From NCBI GenBank assembly GCA_027618625.1, contig JAQCER010000005.1:1-17874 (forward strand): a stretch of DNA of 17,874 nucleotides, given 5' to 3'. Shown one piece after another: positions 1,871 to 17,270 of this stretch (its first letter is position 1; each line of letters begins with the position of its first letter). Source of the stretch: Verrucomicrobiota bacterium (GTDB lineage: Bacteria > Verrucomicrobiota > Verrucomicrobiia > Verrucomicrobiales > DEV007). The notes under the pieces were generated by a model, which worked only from the letters and a program-made list of their open reading frames with translations, was not told where the DNA came from and made no database searches. A program made the translations under genes and the position numbers.

Positions 1871-1900
1871 TCGTCAGCGATCGTCAGCGATCGTCAGCGA
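1871..1900. repeat. 10-bp tandem repeat, three copies
   Basis: TCGTCAGCGA is repeated three times without mismatch in the 58-bp gap between the convergent sulfatase remnant and selenoprotein C. The third copy contains the TGA stop (1894-1896, minus strand) of selenoprotein C and its final arginine codon. It may be a replication-slippage product; no regulatory role can be shown. Confidence 0.85.
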
Positions 1901-4900
1901 TGCCAGGGTTTGCCGCGCCGGAAGCTGGTCAACCGCTCCTCGATCTCGGCTACCAGCTTTGTCTGATTCTGCCTTCTCGCGATGTCGATGGCTTCCTCAA
2001 GTGTTTTGACTGCGGCGTCGAAGTCACCAATCTCCGCATAGGCTGCGGCAAGCGTATCCAGCGCGCGCGGGTCCCTGTGACGGGTGCTCTCGACCAGCAT
2101 CGTTGCCAACTGCACTGCCTCTGTTCCGTTGCGAACGGAGGCATCGGGATTCGTCGCGAGGATCCACGCAAGATTGCTCGCAGCAGTCAACTGTCGGGGA
2201 TTGTGGCGCAGGACGGTGCGCATGTTGTCCGCGGCTTCTCGATGCCGGTCTGCCTGGTAAAGCTTGTGCGCAACGGCAAGGCGAAGCGGTTCAACGGCCT
2301 TTGGTGAAAGCTGATCGAGATATCCCAGCGCCTTGTCGACCTGGCCTGATGTTGTGGCGAGTCTGGCGAGGCTGCTGAGCGCATCCACATGCCCTGGATC
2401 ATATCTTAAGACCTGTTCAAAGGCAGAAATGGCAGCGGTGACCATTCCCTCCTCCTCTGACAAGCTGCCCAGAAAATAGTGGATGGATGAAACTTCCATA
2501 TCCTGATGGCCGGGGCCGCGGTTGTCAGCGATACGGATCAGTTGTTGGAGGTAATCGATGGCATGGGATCGCAACCCCCCCTCGTAGAACTTCAATGCCA
2601 GCTGCATGGAATCGATCGACTTTGGCAAGGCTCGTCGCCGTCCGGAAAATGCTTGTGCGAGCCTTACGCGCGTTGCGGGGTCATCGATCGACTCAATCTC
2701 GGTATCCTTCACGATTTGGATCGCTGACACAGGGCCAAGATACAGAACCTGCAGGCACCCATCTCTTCCGACGAGGAAAGTGCTGGGCAAAGGGAGCGGG
2801 CGATTGCCCTGGATGAGGGTGCGCTGGGTTGACTCAAGCGTGTCGATGACCGCTTGATTCGCCCAGGCAAAGTCGATGTTGCCCGCGGAATTCCGGGCGA
2901 TCGCCAGTGCCTCCGCTTCACCATCCTGCTTGTCCAGCTGGTCAACGCTCAACGCAACAATCCGAATCCCGTTCTTTTCAAAATCCCCGGCATGCTCTGC
3001 GAAATCCAGCAACTCACTCAAACAGGGTGCGCACCAGCTCGCCCAGAGGTTGATGATCAACGTTTGATCGCTGACTCCCCCAAGCGTCAGCTCAGAACCA
3101 TCGAATCGAGATACCTTGATTTCAGGCAATGGCAATCGACTGACCATCGGTATCCGAGCCACTGTCGATGTCTGAGGAATCGGTGGAGAGGGGAGAAGCT
3201 TCAGCGATCGGGCTCCAGCCTCAACCGGCCGTGCCGCGCCACTTCCTTGCACAAGGTGGTAACGTCCTCCAGGCTCAATGTTCTTGAACGTTTCTTGCAA
3301 TCCGTCGGGCCAGCGCACCATCAACGATTCGATCACCAGGCCGGCCGACCGCCCGAGGCCAAAGTGTACCCACTTGCTGGACTGCGAAAGGAATCCGTCG
3401 CCAGCTGCAAGCGTCTGGATCCGCTTCTCCAAGCCTTTGCCTCGATCGACGGTCAATTCAAGACGGGCACCAATGGCATCGCGATTGCAATGAGCGCCTT
3501 GGAGTCGGAAGCGAACCGATGCGCGCCCGGGATCAGTAGAGGCGTCACCATTGTTTCTTAGGAATCTTACCATGGGCGCCGTGCGATTGCTGATCCACAG
3601 ATCGAGATCACCGTCCTGATCCCAGTCCGTCGTCGCCACGCCCCGCGCATCATCCAGAAAGTCGAGGCCAGAGACTGCTGAAATATTGGCCATCGGCACA
3701 CTGCTCTGCAGATTGAGAAAACTGCAATTGCGCTCGTTGCCGCTCCAGGAGCTGCCCTGGCGAAGCAGGGCGTTCGCCGTGAGCCAGGCCATCCGATAAT
3801 TTGAGAAGGCGCTCGAATCGCCGCTGCTTTCAGGTGATTGCGACGCGCCCCGCCGCCAGTAGAAGCTTCATAAATCGTCGGGTCTACGGGCCGTTACGAA
3901 GCCATTGCCGATCACCAGATCCTCCCAACCGTCGTTGTTGAGATCAACGAACTTCGATCCCCATGACCAACGCCCCATGGTGACGTTTGCCGCCTCGCTG
4001 ACATCCTGGAATCGACCGGTTCCGGTGTTGCGAAAGAGTGAATTTCCGCGAGCCATCCGGCGCATCTGGGAGAGTTTCAGGTCATTTTCGCCTGGGCGAA
4101 AATGGCGCTGATAAGTGATGCGATTGCCCGCGCCCGAAAACATGTTTCCGACGTAGAGATCCATCCAACCGTCGTTGTCATAGTCGGCCCAGTCAGCAGA
4201 CATTCCCGATGAGATATCTTCGACGCCCGCATCTGCGGCAACATCAACAAAGGCACCGTCGGTGTTCCGATAGAGGTTGTTCCGTCCGAAGTCGTTGGCC
4301 ACATAAAGATCGAGATCTCCATCGTTATCGTAGTCTTCCCATGCTGCCGCGTAGGAAAAGCGGGCGTTGTTCTGGTTCAATCCGACCGTTTCCGTCACAT
4401 CTTCGAAGCGCCAGTTTCCGATGTTCTTCAGGAGAATGTTGGGTTGCCCGTTGTTTGCATCGTAGAATGGAACCGGAAGACCGAGAACGCTCTCACTCTG
4501 GTCTTTGCCGGGTGGAGTGTGCCCGCAGACGTAGATATCAACGAATGAATTACCATCGTAGTCCGCGGCGGCCATCGAATCCACCATGGTCGGAAATGGA
4601 ACCTGTAACGTATCAGTGAAGGAACCGCCCCCGTCATTGGCGAAGAACATCACACTGGCATCTCCCCCCAGCACGAGATCCTGATCTCCATCATTGTCTA
4701 GATCGATAAAGAGCGCACTGGAGAATGGATCGATCCAGTCCAGACCCGATGCGGTGGCGCGATCGATTACCGAACCATCCGGCTGCTGAATGAGCAGGCG
4801 ATTGGGCAAACCATAAGGTTGGCAGAGATACAAATCGTCAAGACCATCACCGTTGGCGTCACCGATCGCCAATCCCGCCATGGTTACAATGTCAGGTGCG

Positions 4901-5742
4901 ATTGTTCGTTCCAGGCGCGCCTGCCAGTAGTCGACACCACGGGACAAGTGGTCCGTGTAGATCGATGTATTGGCGAACACAGACTCGGTACAGTCGGTGA
5001 AGAGCTGGCCATTACTCTTCGCGCCCCCCTCTTCGTATCGCAGCAATCGAACGCGGCTGAGAACTGGATCCTGCTGCTGTTGATTGGTCCAGCCAACCTC
5101 CCAGGTTGCATTCTGCTGTATGGGTTGGCCGTCGACGATTCCAAACGTATCAAAAAACACCTGGGTGGTGAATTGCTCGTCGGCACCTGACTCAATCGTG
5201 AAAACCTTCGGATTCAAGCGGATCGCGTTACCGGAAGCCAACGGCTCCATCCACTGCTGCAACGCCTGTAAGAATGCCTGCCGCCCCAACGCGGCAATCG
5301 GCCCGGGTTCATCGCTATCGGGCCGAGCAACAGTTAGCGTTCCATCCGTGAACACATCAACCAGCTTTGGGCGCAGTTGGGTCGTAGTAAACGATTGGGA
5401 AATCGCCATCGACTGAGTAATCGATTCAAGAGCGGCGGGATCCAACTCCAACGCGTGGGCCAATGTCTTCAAGACCCCCGCCGCTTTCTCCTGCAGAACT
5501 TCGGTGTCCCAGCCCGAGTCGTTGGAGGCATCGATGCGTATCGCCTCGTCCCTGAAAGGCAGATCGAAGCTTCGTTCTTCACCGGGAAGCGTCCCTAACG
5601 CCATTGGCGTCTGAGCCTCGTCGGCGATTATCGTCTTCGGAGCCGACCCCGCTTTCTGCTCCACCCGTTCGCTTCCAGTGCAGGCGACCAGAAGCACAGC
5701 GACGGCGACGGTTTGCAGGAGTCTGACAGCAGCACCCTTCAC
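1894..5742 (-). CDS. Selenoprotein C: lipoprotein with FG-GAP, Sec, ASPIC/UnbV, TlpA and TPR domains (UGA readthrough)
   Basis: I read this as one gene of 1282 residues with Sec625 at the in-frame TGA 3868-3870. The frame is the same on both sides and the CRTAC1-family architecture runs through. The chosen start is GTG 5742, which overlaps the TGA of the preceding gene (GTGA); the frame is open further upstream, but only inside selenoprotein B. The start gives a lipoprotein signal (LLQTVAVAVLLVAC, lipid-anchored Cys21). Order: N-terminal domain about 40-250; FG-GAP/VCBS repeats with acidic calcium-binding-like loops (GDANGDGLDD, DLDNDGDQD) about 285-620; D-D-L-U-S-F-Y-W; further FG-GAP and GNERN; ASPIC/UnbV about 740-830 (NRDAIGARLEL); TlpA-like thioredoxin with WCAPC at 903-907 and LPSTF; TPR repeats about 1045-1275. 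It probably acts at the membrane on the periplasmic side as a redox protein; substrate unknown. A conventional caller would split it at 3868. The alternative, a nonsense-mutated gene, is disfavoured because two paralogues share the same TGA. Confidence 0.85.
3840..3870 (-). promoter_or_regulatory. Sec UGA codon with SECIS-like hairpin (selenoprotein C)
   Basis: The TGA (3870-3868) lies in the context GAT-TTA-TGA-AGC (D-L-U-S). Downstream, GCGGCG pairs with CGTCGC (6 bp, one G-U) around the loop GGGCG at 3840-3856. The loop begins 18 nt after the UGA, and its first two bases are G. This fits the bacterial SECIS pattern (hairpin just downstream of UGA, G among the first two loop bases). It departs from the GGUC loop of the two sister genes, so it is the weakest of the three. 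Confidence 0.7.
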
Positions 5743-8678
5743 CGTTGAATCAGCAGGCGAAGTTGAGACACGGTCGGGATGCCCTTCTGCAAGTGCAACA
5801 CGTTTCCTGAACGATCGATGACGAATGTCGTCGGGAGAGGTTGATCGGCAAACCGGCTCTGCATCAACTCGAGAACAGCATTGCGTTGCTCGTCGCTGGG
5901 GTGAAGGATTTGATAGGGCGGCGCTTTGTCCTTCTGATACGTAGCGAGCTTTGTGCCATCGTCTTCGGGATCGATCGGTAGACCATAGAAGCGAATGGCA
6001 CCGTTGGTTGCCCGCGCCAGTCGAGCAAGATGCGGAATTTCCTTCGCACAAACCGGGCACCACGTCGCCATTGTGGTGACTACCGCCAAGTCGGCGTTGA
6101 TGGTTAAATTCAGAGTGGCGATCGGGATTGGGCGCAGGTTCGACAGCTGCGGAATCGCTGCCTTGACCAACTCTGCTTTCACCACAGCAGCCTCCGCTTG
6201 ATTCTCATGGACGGTTGCCAGCCATCCCGCCGACAGGGAATCGAGATGGCTGCGCTTGCCGCTCGTCCATTCGATGGTGATCTGGTCTGCCTTTTGATGT
6301 TGACCGATGCCTATGGTCAAGGTGCGGCTGTTCTGGGCTGCAAAGCCATCGCCGCAGCGCAGTTCACGCCGCAGTTTCTGATCCCCGAGTTCAACTACCA
6401 CATGCGTCCCGTAGCCGTCGCGAGGACTCCACTCTTTCGTGGCGGCCGACGCCTGGTTTCCTCCGATGAGGCGCAGGTGGACAGCGTTTCCGACGTTACG
6501 CATTTCGTTGCGAAACAGCTGCAGCTGCGGGTTGTTGGAATTCGTGAGCACGATGTCGGTTCTGCCGTCGTGGTCGTAGTCGAAATAAGCAAATGCGCGT
6601 CCATCGGCGAGGCTGTCGCTGCCGCTGAGTCCTGATACGTCAGCAAAGGCTTGCCCCATCTGGTTCAAGAAGACGGAATTGGTCTCGTTGCCACTGAACG
6701 AATGGCTGCGCAAGACTCGCCGTTCCTGCACTTTTGTGTTGGTATCGAGAACACCTGGCATACTGCCATACTGCCGAGTGTCGATCCCTTCCGCATCAAA
6801 GCGCTTGTTGAGATTAGTGTCAGAGCGCACGACCGCACGCCAGAGATCGCTTCACAAGTCAACTTCTGTGGCAGTCTCTGCTGGTGGCGTGTAGAGACCG
6901 TTGGCGACATAGAGATCGAGGAACGTGTCATTGTTGAAGTCCGCGAATTGCCCTCCCCATGACCAGCCGGTCTTCGCCACGTCCATTGAGGCAGAACTCT
7001 TCACGAGACGATCGCCCGTGTTGTGAAGCAGCAGGTTGCCAGCGACACCGGCATACATCCGTGGCTCCAGTCCATCGATCATCTCCGTGATGCGGCTGCC
7101 GGCCTTGCTGTACATGTAGGTAAAGAACGGATCCTGGAAACCATCATTGTCGATGTCCCCTAACGAGACACCCATTCCGAATCCCTGCAGAACATCGCCA
7201 GCGAGTGAAGTGGTGACATCCGTCAGCTTACCATCATCGTTTCGGAATACGTAATCCGGAGCATAGTCGTTGGCGACGAAGAGATCGGGATCTCCGTCGT
7301 TGTCAAAGTCAGACCACGTGCTCTGGAACGTTGACAGCCAGAGGTCGGCGCCACCTGCCTGCGGGGACGGCGCGAATCGTCCGCCTCCTTGGTTGATCAG
7401 CAACACATTGGGAGGGCCGGTCATTCGGAACACCGGATGATCCTGAGCACGTCGGCGCTTCCACTCTAAGCGCTCGTCAGGATTCAGGAACTCGTCAGCC
7501 AGCACGTTGGGTGGCTTGGTGATCGGCAGGCGATACGTGGAAATGTAGACGTCGAGCAATCCGTCGCCATTGACGTCGGCCGATGCCATCGAAGAAACCC
7601 AGTAGGGCAGCGGGGAGCTTACGCTTTCCTGGCTCTTGTCAAAGAACTGGCCGCCAATGTTCTCGTAGTAGCGGCTGCGTTCCAGGCTCCGACCAATGAA
7701 CACGTCGGCATCGCCATCATTGTCGTAGTCGGCGAAAAGCGAACAGTTGCAGATGCCATCGATATCCAGGCCAATCTGCGGTGCGATGTCTTCAAAGGTG
7801 CCATTGCCCCGATTGCGCCAGAGCTGGTTCTTTCCCCACCGGCCGGTCACGTAGAAATCGTCCCATCCATCACCATCGATATCCACCACCGAAACGGAAG
7901 GATGTTGATCCAGCGAGTCCCAACTGATGACGTATGGCCAGTAGGCTTTAGGGTAGGTAAATTTTGTGCCACCGGTCAGCAAGACCTCGCGGACGTAGCG
8001 TTCGTGCACGGAAGCACGGGCGCGCGCTACTTCTCTGGAATCTGGAATGGCGTCGTCGAGCACTTCGCGGAAGAACCGCATGGCGGTCTGGGTTGTTTTC
8101 AGTTTTCTGGTAACCCACTGCTGCACCAGCCACTCATTGGCGCTGCTCTTGCTCCAGCGGACATCGACTTCGCCTGACCAGGCGGCGCTGTTGCCAGTGC
8201 CAGTTCGGCCCCGTGCGGAGAATTTCAGCGTGGTTACGAACGTCCCATCCACGTCCGCCGCTCCTTTCAGGACGCCAAAGCGAGCGTCGTCGAACAGGAA
8301 CGCCTCTTCCCACAATGCCGTCCACAGATCGGCAACAGGAATCTCTCGCTCTTGAATGAGCCAGTCGTGCTCGGTGACGTCTGGCCGTTTGGGAGGCTCC
8401 GGGGCTGATCGATCTGGACCTGCAAGATCGAGGGCCGTTGCCGTGGGCGCGAAGAACTGGCTGGCATAGTGTCCCGGCAGTTGCAGGTCGCGAACGGCGG
8501 AGGCAAGTCGGTTAATGGCGGGCGTGAGGGACTCGATGATCTCCTCATTGGCGACCATCAATCGAAATGCCGCGTCGGCGGAGGGTGCCTCCTGAGCGCA
8601 CACGGAGCAGGAAAGGCACAGGTAAGTCACATGCAGCCAGGCTGCGAGCAAGAGGCTTCGCCAACGACACCAGCACAT
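5739..8678 (-). CDS. Selenoprotein B: exported FG-GAP, Sec, ASPIC/UnbV, TlpA protein (UGA readthrough)
   Basis: Read as one gene of 979 residues with Sec609 at the in-frame TGA 6852-6854. The start is the ATG at 8678, which shares its A with the TGA of the LamG gene (TGATG); a GTG at 8681 is possible. The signal peptide (SLLLAAWLHVTYLCLSCSVCA) is probably cleaved before QEAPS. Order: an N-terminal domain about 35-245 shared with selenoprotein A (compare DDARFGVLKG with DDASFGVLKA); FG-GAP repeats about 255-600 with a C-x-C at 310 and 312; V-D-L-U-S-D-L-W; GNETN and further FG-GAP; ASPIC/UnbV about 730-820; TlpA-like thioredoxin with WCPVC at 873-877 and a cis-Pro-type LPTTF motif. The Sec and the CxxC in one chain suggest internal thiol/selenol exchange in the periplasm (inference). 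The stop is followed with overlap by selenoprotein C, so the two are probably co-translated. Confidence 0.9.
6824..6854 (-). promoter_or_regulatory. Sec UGA codon with SECIS-like hairpin, GGUC loop (selenoprotein B)
   Basis: The TGA (6854-6852) lies in GAC-TTG-TGA-AGC. The hairpin GCGUGC-GGUC-GUGCGC (6825-6840) has six pairs including two G-U wobbles, and a possible closing G-U at 6841/6824. The GGUC loop starts 18 nt after the UGA. The E. coli fdhF SECIS has the same GGUC apical loop at nearly the same distance. Confidence 0.82.
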
Positions 8679-11368
8679 CACTGCCCGATGTCCTTCACGC
8701 GATAGTATCGCTCCTGAGTACCCGCCGGGGGTGTGTCCTGATAACTGGTGGTTTCACCTGCTCCGACAATGCTGTCGTCAATCTCGGTCCAAGCCGAAAG
8801 ATCGGGGGAGGCGTCGACGGCATAGGTGCGCCCGGCGACAGAGTTCCACAAGAGCTCTACTGTGCCAGCACCGGCGTCGTAGGCTGCGGATACGATCTCA
8901 AATGGGCTGGCCTCTCCAATCGTATCAGGGCCCAGGGCGAGATTGGTCGCCACTTCATCGGCAGTGAGCGTCCCGCGCCAGATTCTGAACTCGTTCACGG
9001 TGCCGGAATGCCCGGGATCCCCCCAGGCTGTTGAGCCGATCGATTCGGTGGTTGTGACAATGTTGCTCACCGGATTGGTTTCCAGTTCCGTGATCTCCTG
9101 CAGACCATCGATCCAGAGATTCGTCGTGCCCTCGGGGCCAACGCTGACCACGAGATGATGTTCCTCGTCTTCGGTCAACCGCTCACCGCTGCCAAAAGGA
9201 ATACTGTCGATCCCATGAGCACCATTGCGGTCGAGGCCAGGGGCGACATCGCCACCGCCCCGGAAGTTGGTCCACGCGAATTCCTGGCCCGCCTGACTGG
9301 TGCCGAAGGTGAACAATTTTGCCCAAGTCCCGGAGCCAGAGTCAGTATACCAGGCTTCCACGCTCACACCGGTGACGGCAAAATTGCCTCCGATATCGAC
9401 TGGATCGGTGAAGCGCATGCTGGTGGCCCCACCACCGGAACCAGCTCCATCCAGCTTGAGCTGATTGTCTTCGACAACCGCGGTGCTGAAGAGAATGCCG
9501 TCGTTGCCACCGACGGAATCCGTCAACTCTGCACCTGCGTTGTAGGAATAGCGATGGGCGAGTTGGGCCATCGTCAGCGGCGGTGGATCGTTCGGGTCAT
9601 TCGGGTTGGTGTTCGTGGCGATTTCCAGCCCATCCGGGTACAGGTCCATGTCTGAATCGGTCAGCAGCGGGTTTGTCTTGTGGGTCTTTACTTCAGCACC
9701 GTCAGTCAGGGTGTCACCATCCGAGTCAGCGAGCCGAGGATCCGACTTGTAAGTCTTGACTTCTTCTCCGTCGGTGAGTAGGTCGCTATCGGTATCTGCC
9801 TTGTTCGGATTCAATTGAAAACTGAATGCGAGCTCCTCCGCATTGGTCAATCCGTCGGCATCAGCATCCGCATCACCCGTCTGGTTGAGGTTTCCGAACC
9901 ATTCCTGCTCCCAGGCATCTGGAAGTCCATCCCCATCGGAATCCAGTGCTGCAGTCGGAGCGATCGATGCATGGGCCTCAATGCGCTCCGCCGGCAGGAT
10001 TTTATCGTAGATAGCGACTTCATCGAGCAAACCAATATACTGGCCTTTGCCACCTTGCCCGAGCGAGTTCCAACCCATGTATCGGATATGCGCATCGGAA
10101 TCCGTAAAGACATTTGCACCACCTTGGAGGTCAGACTTCAACTCGCCGTCGACGTAAAGCTGCGAGGTGAAGCTGCTCCAGTCATACGTGACTGCGACGT
10201 GGTGCCACTCATTGTCGTTGATAGGATCGTCACTGACATGCAGGTGTTGGTCATTCACCGCAATCGCTCCGAGCTGGCCGGTTGGGAGGATGTATCCCCA
10301 CTGGATGTCACCATCGCCGGGACTCTCTTCGCCGAACACCGTCGCCGTTCGCCAGTTGGACGCATCCTGGCCCTCTTGAGAGGTCTTCATCCAGAACTCA
10401 AGCGTGGTCTTCTGATCTGGATCTTGACTCCCGGCAGAATCGTCGTTCACGAGCTGGGCAAGCGATCCAGCACCGGCTTCGCCAAAGTCGATATGTGAGT
10501 TGCCCGGGGCGTCCGCGAAACTTGCCGCCAGTCCATGGTAGCCATCGACCTGAGTGACGCCAACATACGTGCCGTCGGTTTCGGTGGCGCCAGAGTCCGT
10601 GGCCGTCCCACCCCCGTCGTCAAATCGCCAATAAGAAACCGGCTCATCCTGCAGAACCGCAGCGGCGTAGGCGCCAGGCACCGAATCAGGCCCGGCGGCA
10701 AGATTGGAAGCAACTTCGTCTGCCGTCAGCTCTCCCGCCCAGATCCGGAACTCGTTCACCGTGCCATTCATTCCTGGGTCGCCCCAGCTGGTAGCACCGA
10801 TCGCCTCAAAGTTCGCCCCGCCTCCTTGACCGATGTCAGCAGTCGGAGTCGTCTCCACGGCCTCAAGCTTCAGGTCTCCATCCAGCCAGGTGTTGAGTTG
10901 GCCATCGACGCCGACACTGATCACCAGATGGTGTTCTTCATTCTGCGAAATCTGCTCACCAAAAAGCTTGGCACCGCCACGATCCACGCCGGATTGCTCG
11001 CCGTTGCCTCGGGTGTGGGTGTAGGCAAGTTCGAACCCAGCCTCGTTCTGGCCGAACTGGAACAACTTGCCCCACGTGCCAGTTCCCGCGTCGGTGTACC
11101 AGGCCTCGATGGTCACGCCGGTTTCGCCAAAGTTGGTGCCGATATCGACAGCTTCCGAGAATTCCATCCGATTTGCGCTCGTGCTGCTACCCGCACCTGT
11201 CAGGATCAAGGCACTGTCGCCGACGGTTGCGCCGCCTTCAAGAACTCCAGCATTGCCGCCGACGCTGTCTTCTGTGCCTCCCGAAAAGGAGTATCGATGC
11301 ATCAGGGTTGCGGAATAGGCTGGCGACCAGGCAATAAAGGCACAGGCACAGAGAACGGTAATTTTCAT
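8678..11368 (-). CDS. Exported triple-LamG protein with Asp-rich TSP3-like repeats
   Basis: 896 residues, ATG at 11368, TGA at 8678-8680. The signal peptide MKITVLCACAFIAWSPAYSA ends in a good cleavage site. Order: LamG/concanavalin-like domain about 21-230; a second, different LamG domain about 235-468 (YWRFDD, TLEFWMKTS, EWHHVAVTYDW, LLDEVAIYDKIL); thrombospondin-3/EF-hand-like acidic repeats about 475-595 (DSDGDGLPDAWEQEWFG, DTDSDLLTDGEEV, DSDGDTLTDGAEV, DSDMDLYPDG), likely calcium-binding; a third LamG domain about 601-815 closely resembling the first; and a C-terminal beta domain about 820-896 (VELLWNSVAGRTYAVDASPDLSAW). LamG domains usually bind glycans or act in adhesion; no catalytic residues are seen. 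It contains no internal UGA. It lies between two selenoproteins, 123 bp after the first and overlapping the next (TGATG), so it probably belongs to the same operon as a surface or periplasmic partner. Confidence 0.93.
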   Translation of the reverse strand: MKITVLCACAFIAWSPAYSATLMHRYSFSGGTEDSVGGNAGVLEGGATVGDSALILTGAGSSTSANRMEFSEAVDIGTNFGETGVTIEAWYTDAGTGTWGKLFQFGQNEAGFELAYTHTRGNGEQSGVDRGGAKLFGEQISQNEEHHLVISVGVDGQLNTWLDGDLKLEAVETTPTADIGQGGGANFEAIGATSWGDPGMNGTVNEFRIWAGELTADEVASNLAAGPDSVPGAYAAAVLQDEPVSYWRFDDGGGTATDSGATETDGTYVGVTQVDGYHGLAASFADAPGNSHIDFGEAGAGSLAQLVNDDSAGSQDPDQKTTLEFWMKTSQEGQDASNWRTATVFGEESPGDGDIQWGYILPTGQLGAIAVNDQHLHVSDDPINDNEWHHVAVTYDWSSFTSQLYVDGELKSDLQGGANVFTDSDAHIRYMGWNSLGQGGKGQYIGLLDEVAIYDKILPAERIEAHASIAPTAALDSDGDGLPDAWEQEWFGNLNQTGDADADADGLTNAEELAFSFQLNPNKADTDSDLLTDGEEVKTYKSDPRLADSDGDTLTDGAEVKTHKTNPLLTDSDMDLYPDGLEIATNTNPNDPNDPPPLTMAQLAHRYSYNAGAELTDSVGGNDGILFSTAVVEDNQLKLDGAGSGGGATSMRFTDPVDIGGNFAVTGVSVEAWYTDSGSGTWAKLFTFGTSQAGQEFAWTNFRGGGDVAPGLDRNGAHGIDSIPFGSGERLTEDEEHHLVVSVGPEGTTNLWIDGLQEITELETNPVSNIVTTTESIGSTAWGDPGHSGTVNEFRIWRGTLTADEVATNLALGPDTIGEASPFEIVSAAYDAGAGTVELLWNSVAGRTYAVDASPDLSAWTEIDDSIVGAGETTSYQDTPPAGTQERYYRVKDIGQ
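8924..9568 (-). repeat. LamG duplication, distal copy (third LamG domain)
   Basis: Encodes residues about 601-815 of the LamG protein. It shares with the proximal copy, in the same order, HRYS, DSVGGN, VEAWYTD, GTWAKLF, EEHHLVVSVG, AWGDPG, GTVNEFRIW and LTADEVA-NLA-GPD. The two copies are separated by a different LamG domain and the TSP3 repeats. Confidence 0.85.
10682..11308 (-). repeat. LamG duplication, proximal copy (first LamG domain)
   Basis: Encodes residues about 21-230. Motifs are HRYSFSGG, DSVGGN, IEAWYTD, GTWGKLF, EEHHLVISVG, SWGDPG, GTVNEFRIW and LTADEVASNLAAGPD, matching the third LamG domain motif for motif. The duplication is diverged, so it is not recent. Confidence 0.85.
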
Positions 11369-11491
11369 AGGGACTTAGTAGGCTGATGTAGTGCGAGTCA
11401 AAGGGAAAGGGAGAAACGGAGAAATGGAGGGGCTTTTTCGGTGTCGTAGGGGATGATGCCCGCCAGACCAAGAACAATTTCGTACGACGAC

Positions 11492-13915
11492 TCACAATTC
11501 CTCGATCACGACAGCGCCACCGACTTCCGGGACGGCCTCGTTGGTAACCTTCCCTGACGGCCACCGAACCGAGAGACTTTTCAAGGTTTCGTCTGCTGCC
11601 AGAGTAACACGGATTGCCGCAGCATTCTGCGACGACAGGCCCTCACCAATGCCCCGACGGTACTGGCGCTGGCCTCTGGACGTCACCGCCGTCAACACCG
11701 CGCCGCAGGCGTCACGGTTCGACAAACGCGACGCTGCTGCACCTCGATTGCCCCCAACGAGGTGCACTTCGACCACTCGCCCGCCGGCGGCGGCGCCCTG
11801 ATCTCCTCCACGGTTGCGAAACAGTCTCAACCGCGGAGCGCTCACACTGGCAAGAGCAATGTCCAGCCAACCGTCCTTGTCGTAGTCGAACATGGCAAAT
11901 GAGCGCGCGTCCTCCTTGCAATCGACGCCACTGACCAGCGAGTAATCTTCGAACCCGTCGCGGCCTGCGAGTAGTAAACGGTTGCGTTCATTGCCACTGA
12001 AAGAATTGCTCCGATAGGCCGGGCCACGTTTGCCGGTCAACGCACCTGGCGCTTCCTGCTGTTGCACCCGTAGTTGAAAATTCAACAGCGGTGACTGCCA
12101 ATGACTCGACCTCCGGAACGCATCGCTCTGGGTTGGGTCGGAGAGCACGACCGTGCTCCAGAAGCAACTTCACAAGTCCACCTCAGTCGCAACACTTTGC
12201 GGCGCAGTGTAGTAGCCACTGGGCACGTAGAGATCGCGGCGGCCATCATTATTGAAATCGCCGAATTGGCCACCGAATGCCCAGCCCACCTTTGCCTCTG
12301 GAGAGCCCGCCTCCGCCACTTGCCGGAACGTTCCATCTCTGTTCTCGTAGAGGAAATTGCCACGCGCTGCCGCTTCGATGCGAGGATCGACCTTGCCCAC
12401 TGCCCGGATAATCCGATTGCCTGCCTTCGAGTACATGTTCGACACAAAGAGGTCCAGGTCTCCGTCATTGTCGTAGTCGCCCACCGACGCCCCCATCCCG
12501 AATGCCATTTGTCCGCCGGGAAACTGCGTGGCAAAGGCATCTACGAGCACTGGTTCCGGCGAACCCGCAGGCGTATCATTTCGAAGAAAGCTGTCAGGAG
12601 CAAAGTCGTTGCAGACATACAGATCATCGTCACCATCACCATCCGCATCGAACCAGGCGGGCTGATAACTTTTTCGCCAGAGTTCCACGGCATCGCCACC
12701 AGCCCTCTCCAGCCTGCCGCCGCCTCGGTTCATCAGCAGCACATTGGGCGTGCCTCGGTCGTCAAAGTAGGGATGCGCTCCAGCCGAGAGCGCATCCAGC
12801 CTGCGTGCCTGTTGTTCGGGCAGATAGCGCTGCTTCCAAACAGGCAACACATCTGTTCCCGGGCTATAGGTTGTCAGATAAACATCCAGCAACCCGTCAC
12901 GATTGACATCTGCTGCAGACGCCGAAACGACAAAATACTGCCTGCCGAGATCGGTTAATTCCCCGGTAACATCTCGAAAATGGCCGCCGTCGTTGCGGTA
13001 ATAGAGCGTTGGCTCCAGGGACCTTCCTAACAAAGCATCTGGATCGCCATCGTTGTCGAAATCCGCGAACAAAGCGCAGTTCACGCAGTCCTCGGGCATC
13101 AGTCCCGAGCGGAGCGTGACGTCCTCAAAAGTGCCGTCACCCTTGTTGCGCAACAACTGTGGCGATGCCCACCTTGCGCTCACAAAGAGATCATCGTTGC
13201 CGTCGGAATCGTAGTCGACCACACTGACCGACGGATACTGGAAGGCACTCTCCATGTCCGCCAGATCCGCGTATTCCCGCTTTGCCAGCAGCAGCCGTTT
13301 CTCCGTCAGCGCCGTCACCGTGATCTCCTCCTGCAATGAGCGGCGCGCCTGATCAAAAGCGATCCAGTCGGGTAACGCCGTCTTCAGAACCTCCTCGAAC
13401 AACGGCCCGGTGGATGAAACGGAATCGCTTTCTACCATTGCCCATTCTGCCACCTGCCACGAGCCCGACGCGTCCTGCTTCCAGATCAGTCGCTGCTTTG
13501 TGCGGATTCCCACCATCTTTTCCGCCAAAGTCCCACTGGAATCTACGTAACGCCCTTCAAAACTCGTCAGCATTTCGCACGTCGAAAGATCCACCATGCT
13601 TGCCTTCAGTACTCCGAATGAGGCATCGTCCCACACAGCCGCTTGACTTCGAAGGCGATCCAATGCGGAACTGTCGAATCCATCTGCATACAGATCTTCG
13701 ATCGTGTCGGCTTTACCGGTGATCATGGCCTGCGCCATTGCGCGTAGACGCGGAGTCAACTTCAGCACCAGCTCTTCCACTGCGACCACCTGCTGAACGA
13801 CCGCGTCTGCAGTCGATTGCCCGCTGGTAACGGAGAGCGCGGCTGAAAAGGCCGTCGAGACGACGATCAGCTTGGACAGGAACCACCGGAAGGCGTGTGG
13901 AGAAGGGAGTTTCAT
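11492..13915 (-). CDS. Selenoprotein A: exported FG-GAP, Sec, ASPIC/UnbV protein (UGA readthrough)
   Basis: Read as one gene of 807 residues with Sec582 at the in-frame TGA 12170-12172. It starts at ATG 13915 with a signal peptide (FRWFLSKLIVVSTAFSAALSVTSG); no strong Shine-Dalgarno is visible. Order: N-terminal domain about 40-220, related to that of selenoprotein B; FG-GAP/VCBS repeats about 225-575 (DYDSDGNDD, DFDNDGDPD, DADGDGDDD, DYDNDGDLD) with a C-x-x-C at 277-280; V-D-L-U-S-C-F-W; SFSGNERN and another FG-GAP (DYDKDGWLD); a terminal ASPIC/UnbV domain about 700-805 (NRDACGAVLT, VRWPSGK). Unlike the other two it has no thioredoxin domain. The family is called CRTAC1-like; its biochemical role is not established. 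It is the first gene of the cluster. The 123-bp gap to the LamG gene shows no clear terminator. Confidence 0.9.
12141..12172 (-). promoter_or_regulatory. Sec UGA codon with SECIS-like hairpin, GGUC loop (selenoprotein A)
   Basis: The TGA (12172-12170) lies in GAC-TTG-TGA-AGT. The hairpin GGAGCAC-GGUC-GUGCUC has six Watson-Crick pairs plus a seventh formed either by G-U or by G-C with a bulged U (12141-12159). The GGUC loop begins 18 nt after the UGA. This is the best-formed hairpin of the three and closely resembles the apical part of the E. coli fdhF SECIS. Confidence 0.88.
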
Positions 13916-14177: not shown

Positions 14178-14273
14178 ATGGCGAGATCTAGTCGCGTAAT
14201 CTTGTCGCTGGTGGCCTCCATCTTAGTGGGTGCGGCTTTACAGTCCCGAGCATCATTTGGAGGGAGGATCTAG
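14178..14273 (+). pseudogene. Signal-peptide-like mini ORF, probably the severed start of the following ORF
   Basis: The 31-codon ORF from ATG 14178 to TAG 14271-14273 begins MARSSRVILSLVASILVGAA, followed by LQSRAS, a typical export signal with basic start, hydrophobic core and A-x-S-like end. It then stops at once. The longer ORF that continues rightwards is in the next frame. The simplest reading is one secreted protein broken by a small indel, or an ORF that is only a signal by chance. Confidence 0.4.
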
Positions 14274-14283
14274 GTCGGGCTCG

Positions 14284-14793
14284 GTGCGGCAGCGGCATAA
14301 GGCGGTCGGGCGATTCTATTCCCGGCGAATCAACGCGCTTTTCGAAGAGTGGGCCGAGCTGGACGATGTGCTTCGACCGCTTCTCCATCGGATCGAGGGG
14401 GATATTCACATCGCGAGCAAATCGGCCGGGTATCGGAATCACTTCACGTCGCCGGTCTTGGGCTGCGGCGATTTTCTCCGATCCATCAAGTTTACCAAAC
14501 CGCAGGATTCCCGGATTCGCACGGTCACCGTCCTCTACGAGGGCTCAGGCCCACGGGACTCGTCCATGACAAGTGAAACGATCACTCTGAACTTCATTAC
14601 CGAGAATGGTCGGGCTGTAATCGACGGAGTCCGTTCCGTAAGCCGGTATGATCACAGCTACATCCACGACCTCGACGAAACTAAAGTGACCTCGCTTGAG
14701 GAACATATTCAGGGCCGATGCGAAATGTGGAAGTTTTGGATCGAGGAGATCAACTTGTGGCGCAGACAAAACGCTGGGAGATCGGGATTGTAA
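14284..14793 (+). CDS. Hypothetical protein, uncertain start
   Basis: About 169 residues from a GTG at 14284 (the open frame reaches back to a GTG at 14230) to the TAA at 14791-14793. A purine-rich GGAGGGAGG lies at 14259-14267, rather far from the GTG. The sequence has plausible protein character: a helical N-terminal part (RFYSRRINALFEEWAELDDV), beta-rich central strands (RIRTVTVLYEG, ETITLNFITENGRAVIDGVR) and an acidic/aromatic C-terminus. I do not recognise the family. It lacks its own signal peptide; the mini ORF at 14178 in another frame would supply one. It may be the decayed remains of a secreted protein. Confidence 0.45.
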   Translation: MRQRHKAVGRFYSRRINALFEEWAELDDVLRPLLHRIEGDIHIASKSAGYRNHFTSPVLGCGDFLRSIKFTKPQDSRIRTVTVLYEGSGPRDSSMTSETITLNFITENGRAVIDGVRSVSRYDHSYIHDLDETKVTSLEEHIQGRCEMWKFWIEEINLWRRQNAGRSGL

Positions 14794-14972: not shown

Positions 14973-17270
14973 TTACAAGAGTATGAAGGCGTCGCCTTCA
15001 TTTGCGTGTGGGGCTTCTTCGATGGATCCGATTATGGCGGTGTCGGGATAGCCTGCGGCGAGAAGTGATGCAACGCAGTGGGCGGTTTCTTCCATGGGCA
15101 CCATGGCGAGGAGGCCGCCGGAAGTTTGCGGATCGAAGAGCAACGGATAGGCGGGGTGCTGGGCGATCGCTGCTGGGGTGTCCAGGCCGTGCATGGCGCG
15201 ACTGTTCTGCCGGTGAAGGGAACTGAGAATTCCTCCGCTGGCGGTGTCGATCGCGCCGTCGAGCAGTGGGATGGTGTCGATTTCGAGGCGGGCGATTCTG
15301 CGGAGCGGGCGCAACATTTCCAGCAAATGCCCGGCCAGGCCGAAGCCTGTGACATCGGTGCAGGCGCTGGCGTGGTGTTGGCGCAGGATCTTCGATGCAG
15401 CGAAATTGGACAGGCACATGGAGGCAATGGCGGAATCGATCCAGCGCCCGCGGGCCTTCAGTCGCATGGCGGCAGCGAAGAGGGTGCCGGTGCCGATCGC
15501 CTTGGTCAGAATGATCGAGTGCCCCGGGGCGGGCGTCGATTTTTCCATGGTGCTGCCGGGCGCGGCAAAGCCGTTACAGGTCAACCCTAACGCTAACACA
15601 TTGCCCTCAGCCGTGTGTCCGCCGTAGAGTGCGGCTCCGGTTTCCTCCAGCACATCGACTACGCCGGACAGGAGCTGGAACAGTGTTTCTCCAGCGACGG
15701 TATCGGAAGCGAACGGCACCAGCGCGGTGGCCAGAGCGCTGTGAGGCTGGGCGCCCATGGCGAAAATATCGCTGAAACAATGCAGCGTGGCGATGCGCCC
15801 GAAGAGCAACGGATCATCGATCAGCGCTGGCAGGTAGTCGACCGTCTGCACCATCTCCATTCCGCTCGGCACGGCGAACACGGCCGCATCTTCGGCATGA
15901 TCGAGCAGGGCAAGGGCCGGGCTGCCCGAACGCTCGCTCCGCAGGCGATCGAGCGCTCCCGTGAGGATGCCGCTGCCGACCTTTGCCGCACAGCCAAGGC
16001 ACCGCATCTGTGACCGTCGGCGCAGCTCCGAGACTTCGTCCGCCAGCGAATCCCTGCGCGCCACGGTGGTTGACTCCGGCGTCTCTGTCATCCCAGGCAT
16101 CAGCGGCAAGTCCTCAAATTTCCGCATGAACCGTCGATCGATCCAATCCTTCAGCTGCCACATCAGCGGCGATCGCCAGGCGAGAAACTTGCGCGAGGCA
16201 ACGGCTTCACCGTTTTCCCCGTTGGCCGTTCCGATCAGGCTGAGGAACTCCTTCTGCGGACGATAGGGGCGCAGTGGCTCGCCATTGAAATAGTGCCGCA
16301 AGTTGTCGAGGAGGGGCTTGGCCATGCGCACCGCGAAAACTCCGGACTTCGGCCGCGGCTTGCCTTCAATGGTGGCGGCATCGCCAGCGCCGAACACGAA
16401 CGGATGCGACACCGATTGCAATGTCGGCGACACTAACAGAAACCCAGCGGCATCGGTCTTGAGGCCGGACTTGCGTATCCACTCCGCCGGGCTGGCACTG
16501 GTGACCCAGAGCAGGTGCTCGGCTTCCACCGTTCGTCCTGAGTCGCAGACCAGTTGTCCTTTGCGCACCTCGACCACGCCTTCACCTGTGTGCACCGTGA
16601 TGCCGCGCTCGTTCAGCAGTTGGGAAAAAATGCGCCGCACCTTCGGATTGTGCGTTTCCAGAATTTCGGGTGCGCGATGCACCAGTGTGACATCACCTTT
16701 GTCACCGAGCCTTCGCTTCATGCAAAGGGCGATCTCTACGCCCCCTGCACCGCCACCGACGATGGCGATGCTCTGCTTGCTGCCACCACCCTCAGCTTCG
16801 GCGTTTGCTGTCCCGTTTGCTTTCGCGATGATGCCGTCCCACTTGCGCAACAGCGCGGGCACCGGTTTCGAACCGACGGCAAAGGCATCTGCGCCAGGCA
16901 CGTTGTCCATACTTGGCGTGCTGCCGGTATTGATGGAAACAGCGTCAAAGGCCAGCGCACTGCGGCCCTTCAGGAGCACCTTTTTTCTGGTAACATCGAT
17001 CCCGATGCATTCGGCCTGGACAAAATGAGCACCGGCGAACTGGCACAGGCGTCGCACATCGATGTGTGCTTCGTCATAAGAATAGTAACCCGCGATGAAT
17101 CCGGGAAGCATGCCCGAGTAAGGCGCGTGGGCGACATCGCTCACCACCGTGATCTGCACCCCCGCCAGTGGCTCCATGGCCAGCATGCGCAGCGCCAGCG
17201 CATGGCTGTGCCCGCCGCCGATGAAGACGAGGCTCTTCGCTGCTGGAATCGTCGGTGATGCTGAATCCAT
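14973..17270 (-). CDS. selD: Selenophosphate synthetase fused to an FAD/NAD(P) oxidoreductase
   Basis: 765 residues, ATG 17270 to TAA 14973-14975. Residues about 12-330 are a pyridine nucleotide-disulfide/NADH-dehydrogenase-like domain: FAD site FIGGGHSH at 16-23, second Rossmann motif IVGGGAGGVEI at 170-180, and FAD-ribityl motif FGAGDAA at 293-299. Residues about 415-765 are SelD: catalytic Cys427 and Lys430 in CLGCAAKVG, DHAEDAAVF, QTVDYL, SDIFAMGAQPHSALA, ALYGGHTAEG, TDVTGFGLAGHLLEM and FDPQTSGGLLA. SelD makes selenophosphate from selenide and ATP in the cytoplasm, for Sec-tRNA (and for selenouridine). Such N-terminal oxidoreductase-SelD fusions are known; the extra domain presumably helps reduce or deliver selenium. 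The catalytic residue is Cys, not Sec. It lies just upstream of the selenoprotein cluster on the same strand, separated by about 1 kb of degraded DNA. Confidence 0.96.
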   Translation of the reverse strand: MDSASPTIPAAKSLVFIGGGHSHALALRMLAMEPLAGVQITVVSDVAHAPYSGMLPGFIAGYYSYDEAHIDVRRLCQFAGAHFVQAECIGIDVTRKKVLLKGRSALAFDAVSINTGSTPSMDNVPGADAFAVGSKPVPALLRKWDGIIAKANGTANAEAEGGGSKQSIAIVGGGAGGVEIALCMKRRLGDKGDVTLVHRAPEILETHNPKVRRIFSQLLNERGITVHTGEGVVEVRKGQLVCDSGRTVEAEHLLWVTSASPAEWIRKSGLKTDAAGFLLVSPTLQSVSHPFVFGAGDAATIEGKPRPKSGVFAVRMAKPLLDNLRHYFNGEPLRPYRPQKEFLSLIGTANGENGEAVASRKFLAWRSPLMWQLKDWIDRRFMRKFEDLPLMPGMTETPESTTVARRDSLADEVSELRRRSQMRCLGCAAKVGSGILTGALDRLRSERSGSPALALLDHAEDAAVFAVPSGMEMVQTVDYLPALIDDPLLFGRIATLHCFSDIFAMGAQPHSALATALVPFASDTVAGETLFQLLSGVVDVLEETGAALYGGHTAEGNVLALGLTCNGFAAPGSTMEKSTPAPGHSIILTKAIGTGTLFAAAMRLKARGRWIDSAIASMCLSNFAASKILRQHHASACTDVTGFGLAGHLLEMLRPLRRIARLEIDTIPLLDGAIDTASGGILSSLHRQNSRAMHGLDTPAAIAQHPAYPLLFDPQTSGGLLAMVPMEETAHCVASLLAAGYPDTAIIGSIEEAPHANEGDAFILL

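Follow-up and report, generated by a model that had tools for sequence, protein, structure and literature searches.

The window analysed here, a stretch of 17,874 nucleotides from contig JAQCER010000005.1 of the Verrucomicrobiota bacterium assembly GCA_027618625.1, carries on its minus strand three CRTAC1-like genes, each of which holds one in-frame TGA codon that very probably encodes selenocysteine (Sec, U). These genes, candidate loci of a preliminary description of the sequence, are called A, B and C. Gene A (11492..13915) would encode a protein of 807 residues with a signal-like N-terminal stretch, an FG-GAP propeller and a UnbV_ASPIC domain, Sec being residue 582. In gene B (5739..8681; 980 residues, Sec at 610) the CRTAC1-like part is followed by a C-terminal TlpA/ResA-like domain, and the lipoprotein-like product of gene C (1894..5742; 1282 residues, Sec at 625) combines it with TlpA/ResA-like and TPR domains. 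The GTG start of gene C is the one that seems most suitable: it overlaps the stop of gene B and precedes a lipobox-like stretch, the frame being open further upstream. N-terminal hydrophobic stretches, with a lipobox-like LLVAC in C, suggest that these proteins are probably exported.

When translated through the TGA, each gene is one open frame with a single internal TGA, located at 12170..12172 in A, 6852..6854 in B and 3868..3870 in C. The three codons share one alignment column, within the motif D-L-U-S-x-x-W. Pfam places FG-GAP repeats before the TGA and the UnbV_ASPIC domain beyond it in all three genes (31, 49 and 59 bits for A, B and C, respectively, the cut-off being 23.4). AhpC-TSA/redoxin domains also lie past the TGA in B and C; Pfam gave no thioredoxin-like domain in gene A, which carries a U-S-C motif with a cysteine two residues after Sec (U+2). 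The preliminary description of three in-frame TGA codons at one aligned site, with homology continuing after them, is thus reproduced. So is its statement that the genetic code is not globally reassigned, since TGA also ends the full-length frames of A, B and C, a LamG gene and a sulfatase fragment of the same window.

These three genes are part of a much larger set. The assembly of their own genome is fragmented and 71% complete; a search of it with a core alignment of the family (A2) gave 110 matches, among which 17 have exactly one TGA, 91 are free of stops and two weak ones have one TAA. The 17 UGA copies are spread over 15 contigs, and the earlier picture of a single cluster tied to selD was too narrow. 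The search was also run over 29 genomes (this one and 28 relatives), with up to 46 candidates scored per genome, and the counts refer to the matches listed. At least 80 TGA-holding matches were obtained, 79 of them at the Sec column after realignment, in 11 genomes. Fetched loci without an alignment across the site were dropped, and L122, which has its TGA elsewhere and a proline at the site, was left out of the 79. All 79 site-aligned stops are TGA, with no TAA and no TAG; one locus (L049) has an additional TAA elsewhere in the matched stretch. The copies number 17 in the own genome (G000) and at least 62 in ten relatives (at least 12 in G001, 9 in G004, 1 in G006, 4 in G008, 9 in G011, 2 in G014, 10 in G015, 6 in G017, 1 in G025 and 8 in G027). 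The ratio of nonsynonymous to synonymous substitution rates is 0.05–0.20 in eight pairs over about 200 codons downstream of the UGA, and 0.03–0.10 upstream of it for seven pairs, those in which the ratio has a defined value. At the level of sequence comparison, the three-gene observation is confirmed, chance being excluded by the scale of 79 TGA out of 79 stops in 11 genomes, which also bears out the earlier argument that parallel nonsense mutations are unlikely.

A hairpin follows the UGA in each gene of the window, at 12142..12159 in A and 6824..6841 in B (both with a 7-bp stem and a GGUC loop) and at 3840..3856 in C (6-bp stem, loop GGGCG, a variant of GGUCG). The loop starts 17 nucleotides past the UGA in all three, in agreement with the equal spacing described before. 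Taken one by one, these putative selenocysteine insertion sequences (SECIS) are unexceptional: compared with dinucleotide shuffles, their z-scores are -1.30, 0.48 and 0.73, and another fold is preferred over the SECIS hairpin in the best 45-nucleotide window of site A. A single-site test was therefore rejected as proof, the significance coming from comparison. For this purpose, 199 sites were reduced to 190 distinct ones (180 TGA and 10 Cys). The constraints of the bacterial SECIS (bSECIS) model, as published in section 5 of a recent review (PMC13188914), were applied by script: loop 16–37 nucleotides past the UGA, G in the first two loop positions and energy of at most -7.5. They are satisfied at 172 of the 180 TGA sites and at none of the 10 Cys paralogue sites, so that the bSECIS check proposed earlier gave a positive answer, although with a loose model. 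A third of synonymous recodings pass as well, and the model was rejected as a sole criterion. Because of this looseness, the argument for a SECIS is built on the constant position of the loop, the GGUC sequence and the pair changes.

The loop starts 17 or 18 nucleotides past the UGA at 165 of the 180 distinct TGA sites, compared with 12–19 of 180 in five synonymous recodings and 2 of 13 close sense-codon homologues. GGUC at +18 is found at 162 of 180 sites, versus 35.3 ± 5.5 in 200 recodings, and the mean local fold energy is -9.89 kcal/mol, versus -5.10 ± 0.19 in 50 recodings. The same GGTC occurs in only one of 13 sense-codon homologues with an identical or near-identical peptide (1 of 20 when seven weakly aligned rows are added). 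Among 179 rows (one two-site locus being merged), 154 form a five-nucleotide loop of the GGUCG type and 16 a four-nucleotide GGUC loop shifted by one. With the rows sorted by fit, compensatory changes are seen at +15/+25, +13/+27 and +17/+23; the +15/+25 pair of the 154 sorted rows is G-U in 69, A-U in 39, G-C in 32, C-G in 12 and U-G in 2. In unsorted rows, 88.5% of the pairs form, versus 83.5 ± 0.4% after shuffling, and in the 147 rows with an identical W-R-Q-V-V peptide 96.0% form, versus 92.0 ± 0.4%, both shuffles ignoring relatedness. Four loci with U-T-F-Y/F-W or U-T-C-M-W motifs (L172, L197, L213 and L033) form neither hairpin register, and their SECIS may differ. As a separate observation, the codon after the UGA is an AGY serine codon at 172 of 180 TGA sites, which are all the serine cases; TCN is never used, though commoner in the pool. 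The first base after the UGA is A at 179 of the 180 sites, the corresponding codons of the window being 12167–12169, 6849–6851 and 3865–3867. Such a preference goes beyond protein-coding need, and is perhaps part of SelB recognition or of the stop-codon context.

The machinery required for Sec insertion was looked for as well. An oxidoreductase–SelD fusion, devoted to selenophosphate synthesis, is encoded at 14973..17270 on the minus strand (TIGR00476, 260 bits for a cut-off of 125); it ends 1.06 kb upstream of gene A, on the same strand, as previously indicated for selD. The preliminary description had also called for selA, selB and a tRNA-Sec. The own genome has a tRNA-Sec (62.3 bits; SeC with anticodon tca by ARAGORN) and SelA (1e-118), whereas the SelB family-model search of this genome returned nothing over the cut-off. 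With a same-genus SelB as query, only the C-terminal 24 residues of the protein, with 92% identity to this query, were found, at bases 8954–9025 of the 9026-base contig C61. Since this tail sits at the very end of the contig, selB is cut by the assembly. In the 29 genomes, a tRNA-Sec of at least 53 bits is present in 11 of 11 genomes with UGA genes versus 4 of 18 without (p 5e-5), and SelB over the cut-off in 9 of 11 versus 3 of 18 (p 0.001), with 100 candidates scored per genome; both tests ignore relatedness and the 53-bit line was drawn after the scores had been seen. The Rfam cut-off of 47 bits is passed by 20 of the 29 genomes, and one 46-bit match is a tRNA-Leu. SelB is over the cut-off in nine of the ten UGA-bearing relatives, the missing cases among the 11 genomes being the own one (71% complete) and G014 (85%). 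In 26 genomes, chosen from the pattern loci described below so as to span the groups, 21 have SelB over the cut-off, one reaches 235.7 for a cut-off of 242.25 and one holds a C-terminal piece.

The family is also found well outside this genus. A scan of GTDB genome contigs with a TGA-containing pattern, which by construction is uninformative about TGA versus other codons, gave at least 109 stretches. At least 110 pattern matches, some of them being the same genes as the 79 above, could be placed in named genomes, all in frame. FG-GAP-like sequence lies upstream in all of them except L173, whose upstream part is truncated where the locus ends; downstream, the frame runs on in 110 of 110, reaching the edge of the fetched DNA in 28. 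They belong to the Verrucomicrobiota, Planctomycetota and Acidobacteriota (Verrucomicrobiales/Akkermansiaceae/Roseibacillus, Planctomycetaceae/Pirellulales, Holophagales, Bryobacterales, Thermoanaerobaculia, Terriglobia, one "Proteobacteria" assembly and others), with two chromosome-level assemblies (L173 and L204). In a sample of 288 Verrucomicrobiota genomes, with seven candidates scored per genome, UGA copies were seen in the own genome only, and the family is therefore patchy; five other genomes of this sample have weaker, sense-coded matches.

In the window, a LamG/TSP3 protein is encoded between genes A and B, in the same gene run (8678..11368, minus strand). Because of TGA/GTG stop/start overlaps between the LamG gene and gene B, and between genes B and C, LamG, B and C look translationally coupled. 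A conserved neighbourhood or common partner gene was considered and rejected: the 18 open frames scanned, which flank 16 of the 22 listed loci, are mixed, with 7 showing no match and the others falling into outer-membrane barrel (3), CotH/LTD (2), DUF1552, DUF1592-type, gamma-glutamyltranspeptidase, TSP3, tRNA synthetase and MORN families. Other features of the window are the sulfatase fragment mentioned above (858–1835), which covers PF00884 profile positions 142–299 of 301, lacks the N-terminal part and has a TGA end; a plus-strand open frame of 187 residues between gene A and selD (14230–14793), with no Pfam match at 1e-6; and a short tandem run of about three copies of cgtcagcgat, seen by eye at 1870–1900, just past the end of gene C.

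What replaces Sec in related proteins depends on the set considered. Thirteen paralogues from these genomes lack TGA at the Sec site; 10 of them have Cys, two P and one D. The Cys motif is D-Y/H-C-T-x-F/Y-W in nine of them and D-Y-C-S-Q-Y-W in one. These ten sequences form a sister family (L034, L035, L123–L128, L130 and L133), nine of which have a second Cys five residues further on (for example C-T-x-F-W-C-H-D). In a protein database, 120 proteins were listed out of 6190 over the threshold, and 116 could be aligned; they have D in 43 cases, A in 23, S in 17, G in 12, N in 8, E in 6, C in 5, and L and M once each. The three best by junction-profile score (P0020, P0005 and P0012) have Cys, and the fourth (P0017) has D. 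The replacement by Cys anticipated earlier as strong support is thus clear among the paralogues, but is seen in only 5 of the 116 listed database homologues. A quick tree was computed from 122 rows (85 Sec, 5 Cys and 32 other), after thinning of the Sec rows and of the sense rows without CxxC. Sec needs seven changes on it (three forced by well supported branches) and Cys four (three forced). The sense rows stand at several places among the Sec rows, mostly in one group, and this scatter, in an unrooted tree with 52 of 119 inner branches weak, suggests repeated loss of Sec.

A possible partner of the selenol emerges from the comparison of alignment columns between 163 Sec and 116 sense proteins, in which the two thioredoxin-like CxxC columns stand out, with Cys in 88% and 87% of the Sec proteins versus 14% and 31% of the others. 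The C-terminal domain matches TlpA (1jfu, 4e-18) and ResA, and a W-C-x-x-C motif is present in both B (W-C-P-V-C, 6048..6062) and C (W-C-A-P-C, 3022..3036), 265 and 279 residues downstream of Sec, respectively. With duplicates removed and Sec proteins restricted to those having at least 310 residues downstream, CxxC in this fused domain is found in 146 of 151 Sec proteins, in 4 of 5 Cys proteins and in 13 of 118 homologues with neither. Ten other Sec proteins stop before the thioredoxin domain, and seven of them, including that of gene A, have a Cys at U+2, a feature seen in none of the 151 others. Another cysteine, at U+87 within G-x-E-R-N-C, occurs in 67 of 176 Sec proteins versus 3 of 123 sense ones, and is possibly a second partner.

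Structural models with Cys in place of Sec were computed with AlphaFold2 for part of C (801 residues; mean predicted local distance difference test score of 88, predicted template modelling score of 0.88) and for B (980 residues; 87 and 0.86). The Sec site corresponds to the first residues of a predicted helix in both (residue 401 of helix 400–411 in the C model, residue 610 of helix 610–619 in the B model). The best hit of a fold search with the C model is murine CRTAC1 (9etn, E 8.6e-28, TM-score of 0.74 by target length), followed by TlpA/ResA. From general knowledge of such enzymes, a protein that combines a CxxC domain with a selenol placed where a helix begins would be compatible with a redox role.

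These data lead to a coherent proposal. The internal UGA would be decoded as Sec by the SelB–tRNA-Sec complex, called by the hairpin 17 nucleotides downstream; as judged from the sequences, insertion of Sec is nearly certain for the family as a whole and very probable at all three sites of the window. Sec would then stand at the start of the predicted helix, at the junction between the FG-GAP propeller and the UnbV/ASPIC parts, as the redox-active selenol of an exported oxidoreductase. Once oxidised, it could be reset by the CxxC of the fused TlpA/ResA-like thioredoxin domain in B and C, or by the Cys two residues away in the U-S-C motif of A. Such a relay between a selenol and an internal or adjacent thiol appears somewhat probable. 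For the more general picture of widespread, multi-copy exported selenoenzymes, in which the propeller–ASPIC selenol does the chemistry, the TlpA-like domain or neighbouring Cys is a built-in reductant and the sense relatives result from repeated Sec loss and CxxC decay, the balance looks about even.

Several observations weigh against this proposal. Regarding the SECIS, the bSECIS model also accepts 55–64 of the 180 sites after synonymous recoding, as well as 6 of the 13 close sense-codon homologues, and 9 of the 179 rows fit neither hairpin register. Regarding the machinery, besides the neglect of relatedness in the co-occurrence tests, three of the 26 chosen UGA-bearing genomes have no SelB, and in the class of G047 (Bryobacterales/Terriglobia) SelB is found in 51 of 61 genomes, yet most homologues there are sense-coded. 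UGA copies occur in 2 of the 13 genomes of this class with a match; co-occurrence in the Terriglobia was set aside as uninformative, SelB being common there. At the site itself, most listed sense homologues show not Cys but one of the residues D, A, S, G and N, so that a large part of the wider family can dispense with it. As for the relay, 5 of the 151 Sec proteins lack CxxC and three of the Sec proteins without thioredoxin domain lack the Cys at U+2. The p value attached to this Cys overstates the case, because the seven proteins of the U-S-C type represent only about three groups of relatives (motifs SCFW, SCLW and TCMW). A correlation between Sec and CxxC in their evolution along the tree was tried and not retained: the relatedness-corrected test is not significant, with too few independent pairs (six, of which on average 2.2 point in the same direction and none in the opposite one).

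The variety of residues at the site and this non-significant test would also fit a structural or metal-binding Sec at the propeller junction, with the thioredoxin-like domain acting independently, and FG-GAP repeats bind calcium. This alternative is rather unlikely: the CxxC of 146 of 151 Sec proteins versus 13 of 118 others, the Cys at U+2 in seven of the ten Sec proteins devoid of thioredoxin domain and in none of the 151 others and the position of Sec at the start of a helix in the predicted models all argue against it.

The other alternatives question Sec insertion itself. The stem-loop found after the stop codon, and the variety of residues in the sense homologues, could evoke a programmed, hairpin-aided read-through inserting an ordinary amino acid. 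This is very improbable given that the GGUC loop and its spacing match a SelB-type SECIS, that the genes occur together with tRNA-Sec and, mostly, SelB, that TAA and TAG are absent from the at least 79 sites and that sister genes have Cys. Ordinary termination, through nonsense mutations in pseudogenes or in genes split with a separate C-terminal protein, might be invoked since TGA is normally a stop and the genome is fragmented and incomplete. It is extremely improbable in view of the recurrence of this site in 11 genomes, with at least 79 genes, and in named genomes from three phyla including two chromosome-level assemblies, of the purifying selection downstream of the UGA, and of the 93 other FG-GAP matches of the own genome, all free of TGA (91 without stop, two with TAA). 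A reassignment of UGA in these genomes would account for the many genes with an in-frame UGA; its probability is practically negligible, as UGA ends A, B, C and the LamG gene and is missing from these same 93 matches.

The proposed selenoproteins resemble several known systems. Like E. coli formate dehydrogenase H (fdhF), they combine an in-frame UGA, a hairpin with a GGUC loop (GGTC 18 nucleotides past the UGA in fdhF, 17 here), SelA, SelD and tRNA-Sec, and Cys in some sister genes. In contrast to such SelB/SECIS selenoproteins, Sec would belong here to a propeller/ASPIC protein of the CRTAC1 type, which is probably exported and has many copies per genome. They share their FG-GAP and UnbV_ASPIC domains, and the fold of the C model, with the CRTAC1/ASPIC-UnbV family (PF07593, PF13517; 9etn), from which these bacterial proteins differ by Sec and often by a C-terminal thioredoxin-like domain. 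The latter resembles the TlpA/ResA thiol:disulfide oxidoreductases by both sequence and fold, but is fused to a Sec-bearing propeller and does not reach the curated NCBIfam TlpA/ResA cut-offs. TlpA/ResA-like selenoproteins are known, such as the UGC-containing ones (NF041054, WAxxUGC_long), in which Sec belongs to the thioredoxin-like motif U-G-C. Here, in contrast, Sec is far upstream and the CxxC stays Cys, gene C scoring 20.8 bits on NF041054 for a cut-off of 300.

The novelty claimed in the preliminary description is maintained within the sources covered. As far as its accessible text goes, a 2026 review of prokaryotic selenoproteins recognizes 119 families, with TlpA/ResA-like selenoproteins in its Table 1; it contains no FG-GAP, VCBS or ASPIC wording and no such Table 1 entry (PMC13188914). 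Likewise, in the portions of text available, there is no UnbV/ASPIC in PMC4807772 and no FG-GAP/VCBS in PMC12013277, PMC5029168 and PMC9312934. A literature search gave no paper joining selenoprotein with UnbV or selenocysteine with FG-GAP, although newer or subscription literature may differ; the two matches for selenocysteine and CRTAC1 concern, from their listing, peroxiredoxin 6. No NCBIfam model is over its cut-off on seven members, namely A, B, C and four relatives. On this sequence evidence, a large putative selenoprotein family is absent from the searchable catalogues (Table 1 of the review and NCBIfam).

The size of this family is best appreciated by comparison: one genome, 71% complete, holds 17 genes of this FG-GAP/ASPIC family, when the largest whole bacterial selenoproteomes given in the part of the review consulted amount to 57 and 63 genes (PMC13188914). 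According to the same source, a thioredoxin-like fold is shared by the majority of characterised selenoproteins, and selenoproteins are seldom kept by aerobes; Sec would be carried here by a probably exported propeller protein. Since a standard annotation would stop these genes at the UGA, the extent to which these phyla use selenium has probably been underestimated. The family also provides a handle on the role of CRTAC1/ASPIC-UnbV proteins. If the proposal is right, the ASPIC/UnbV domain would gain a biochemical role, and extracytoplasmic selenium chemistry would be common among environmental members of the Verrucomicrobiota, Planctomycetota and Acidobacteriota.

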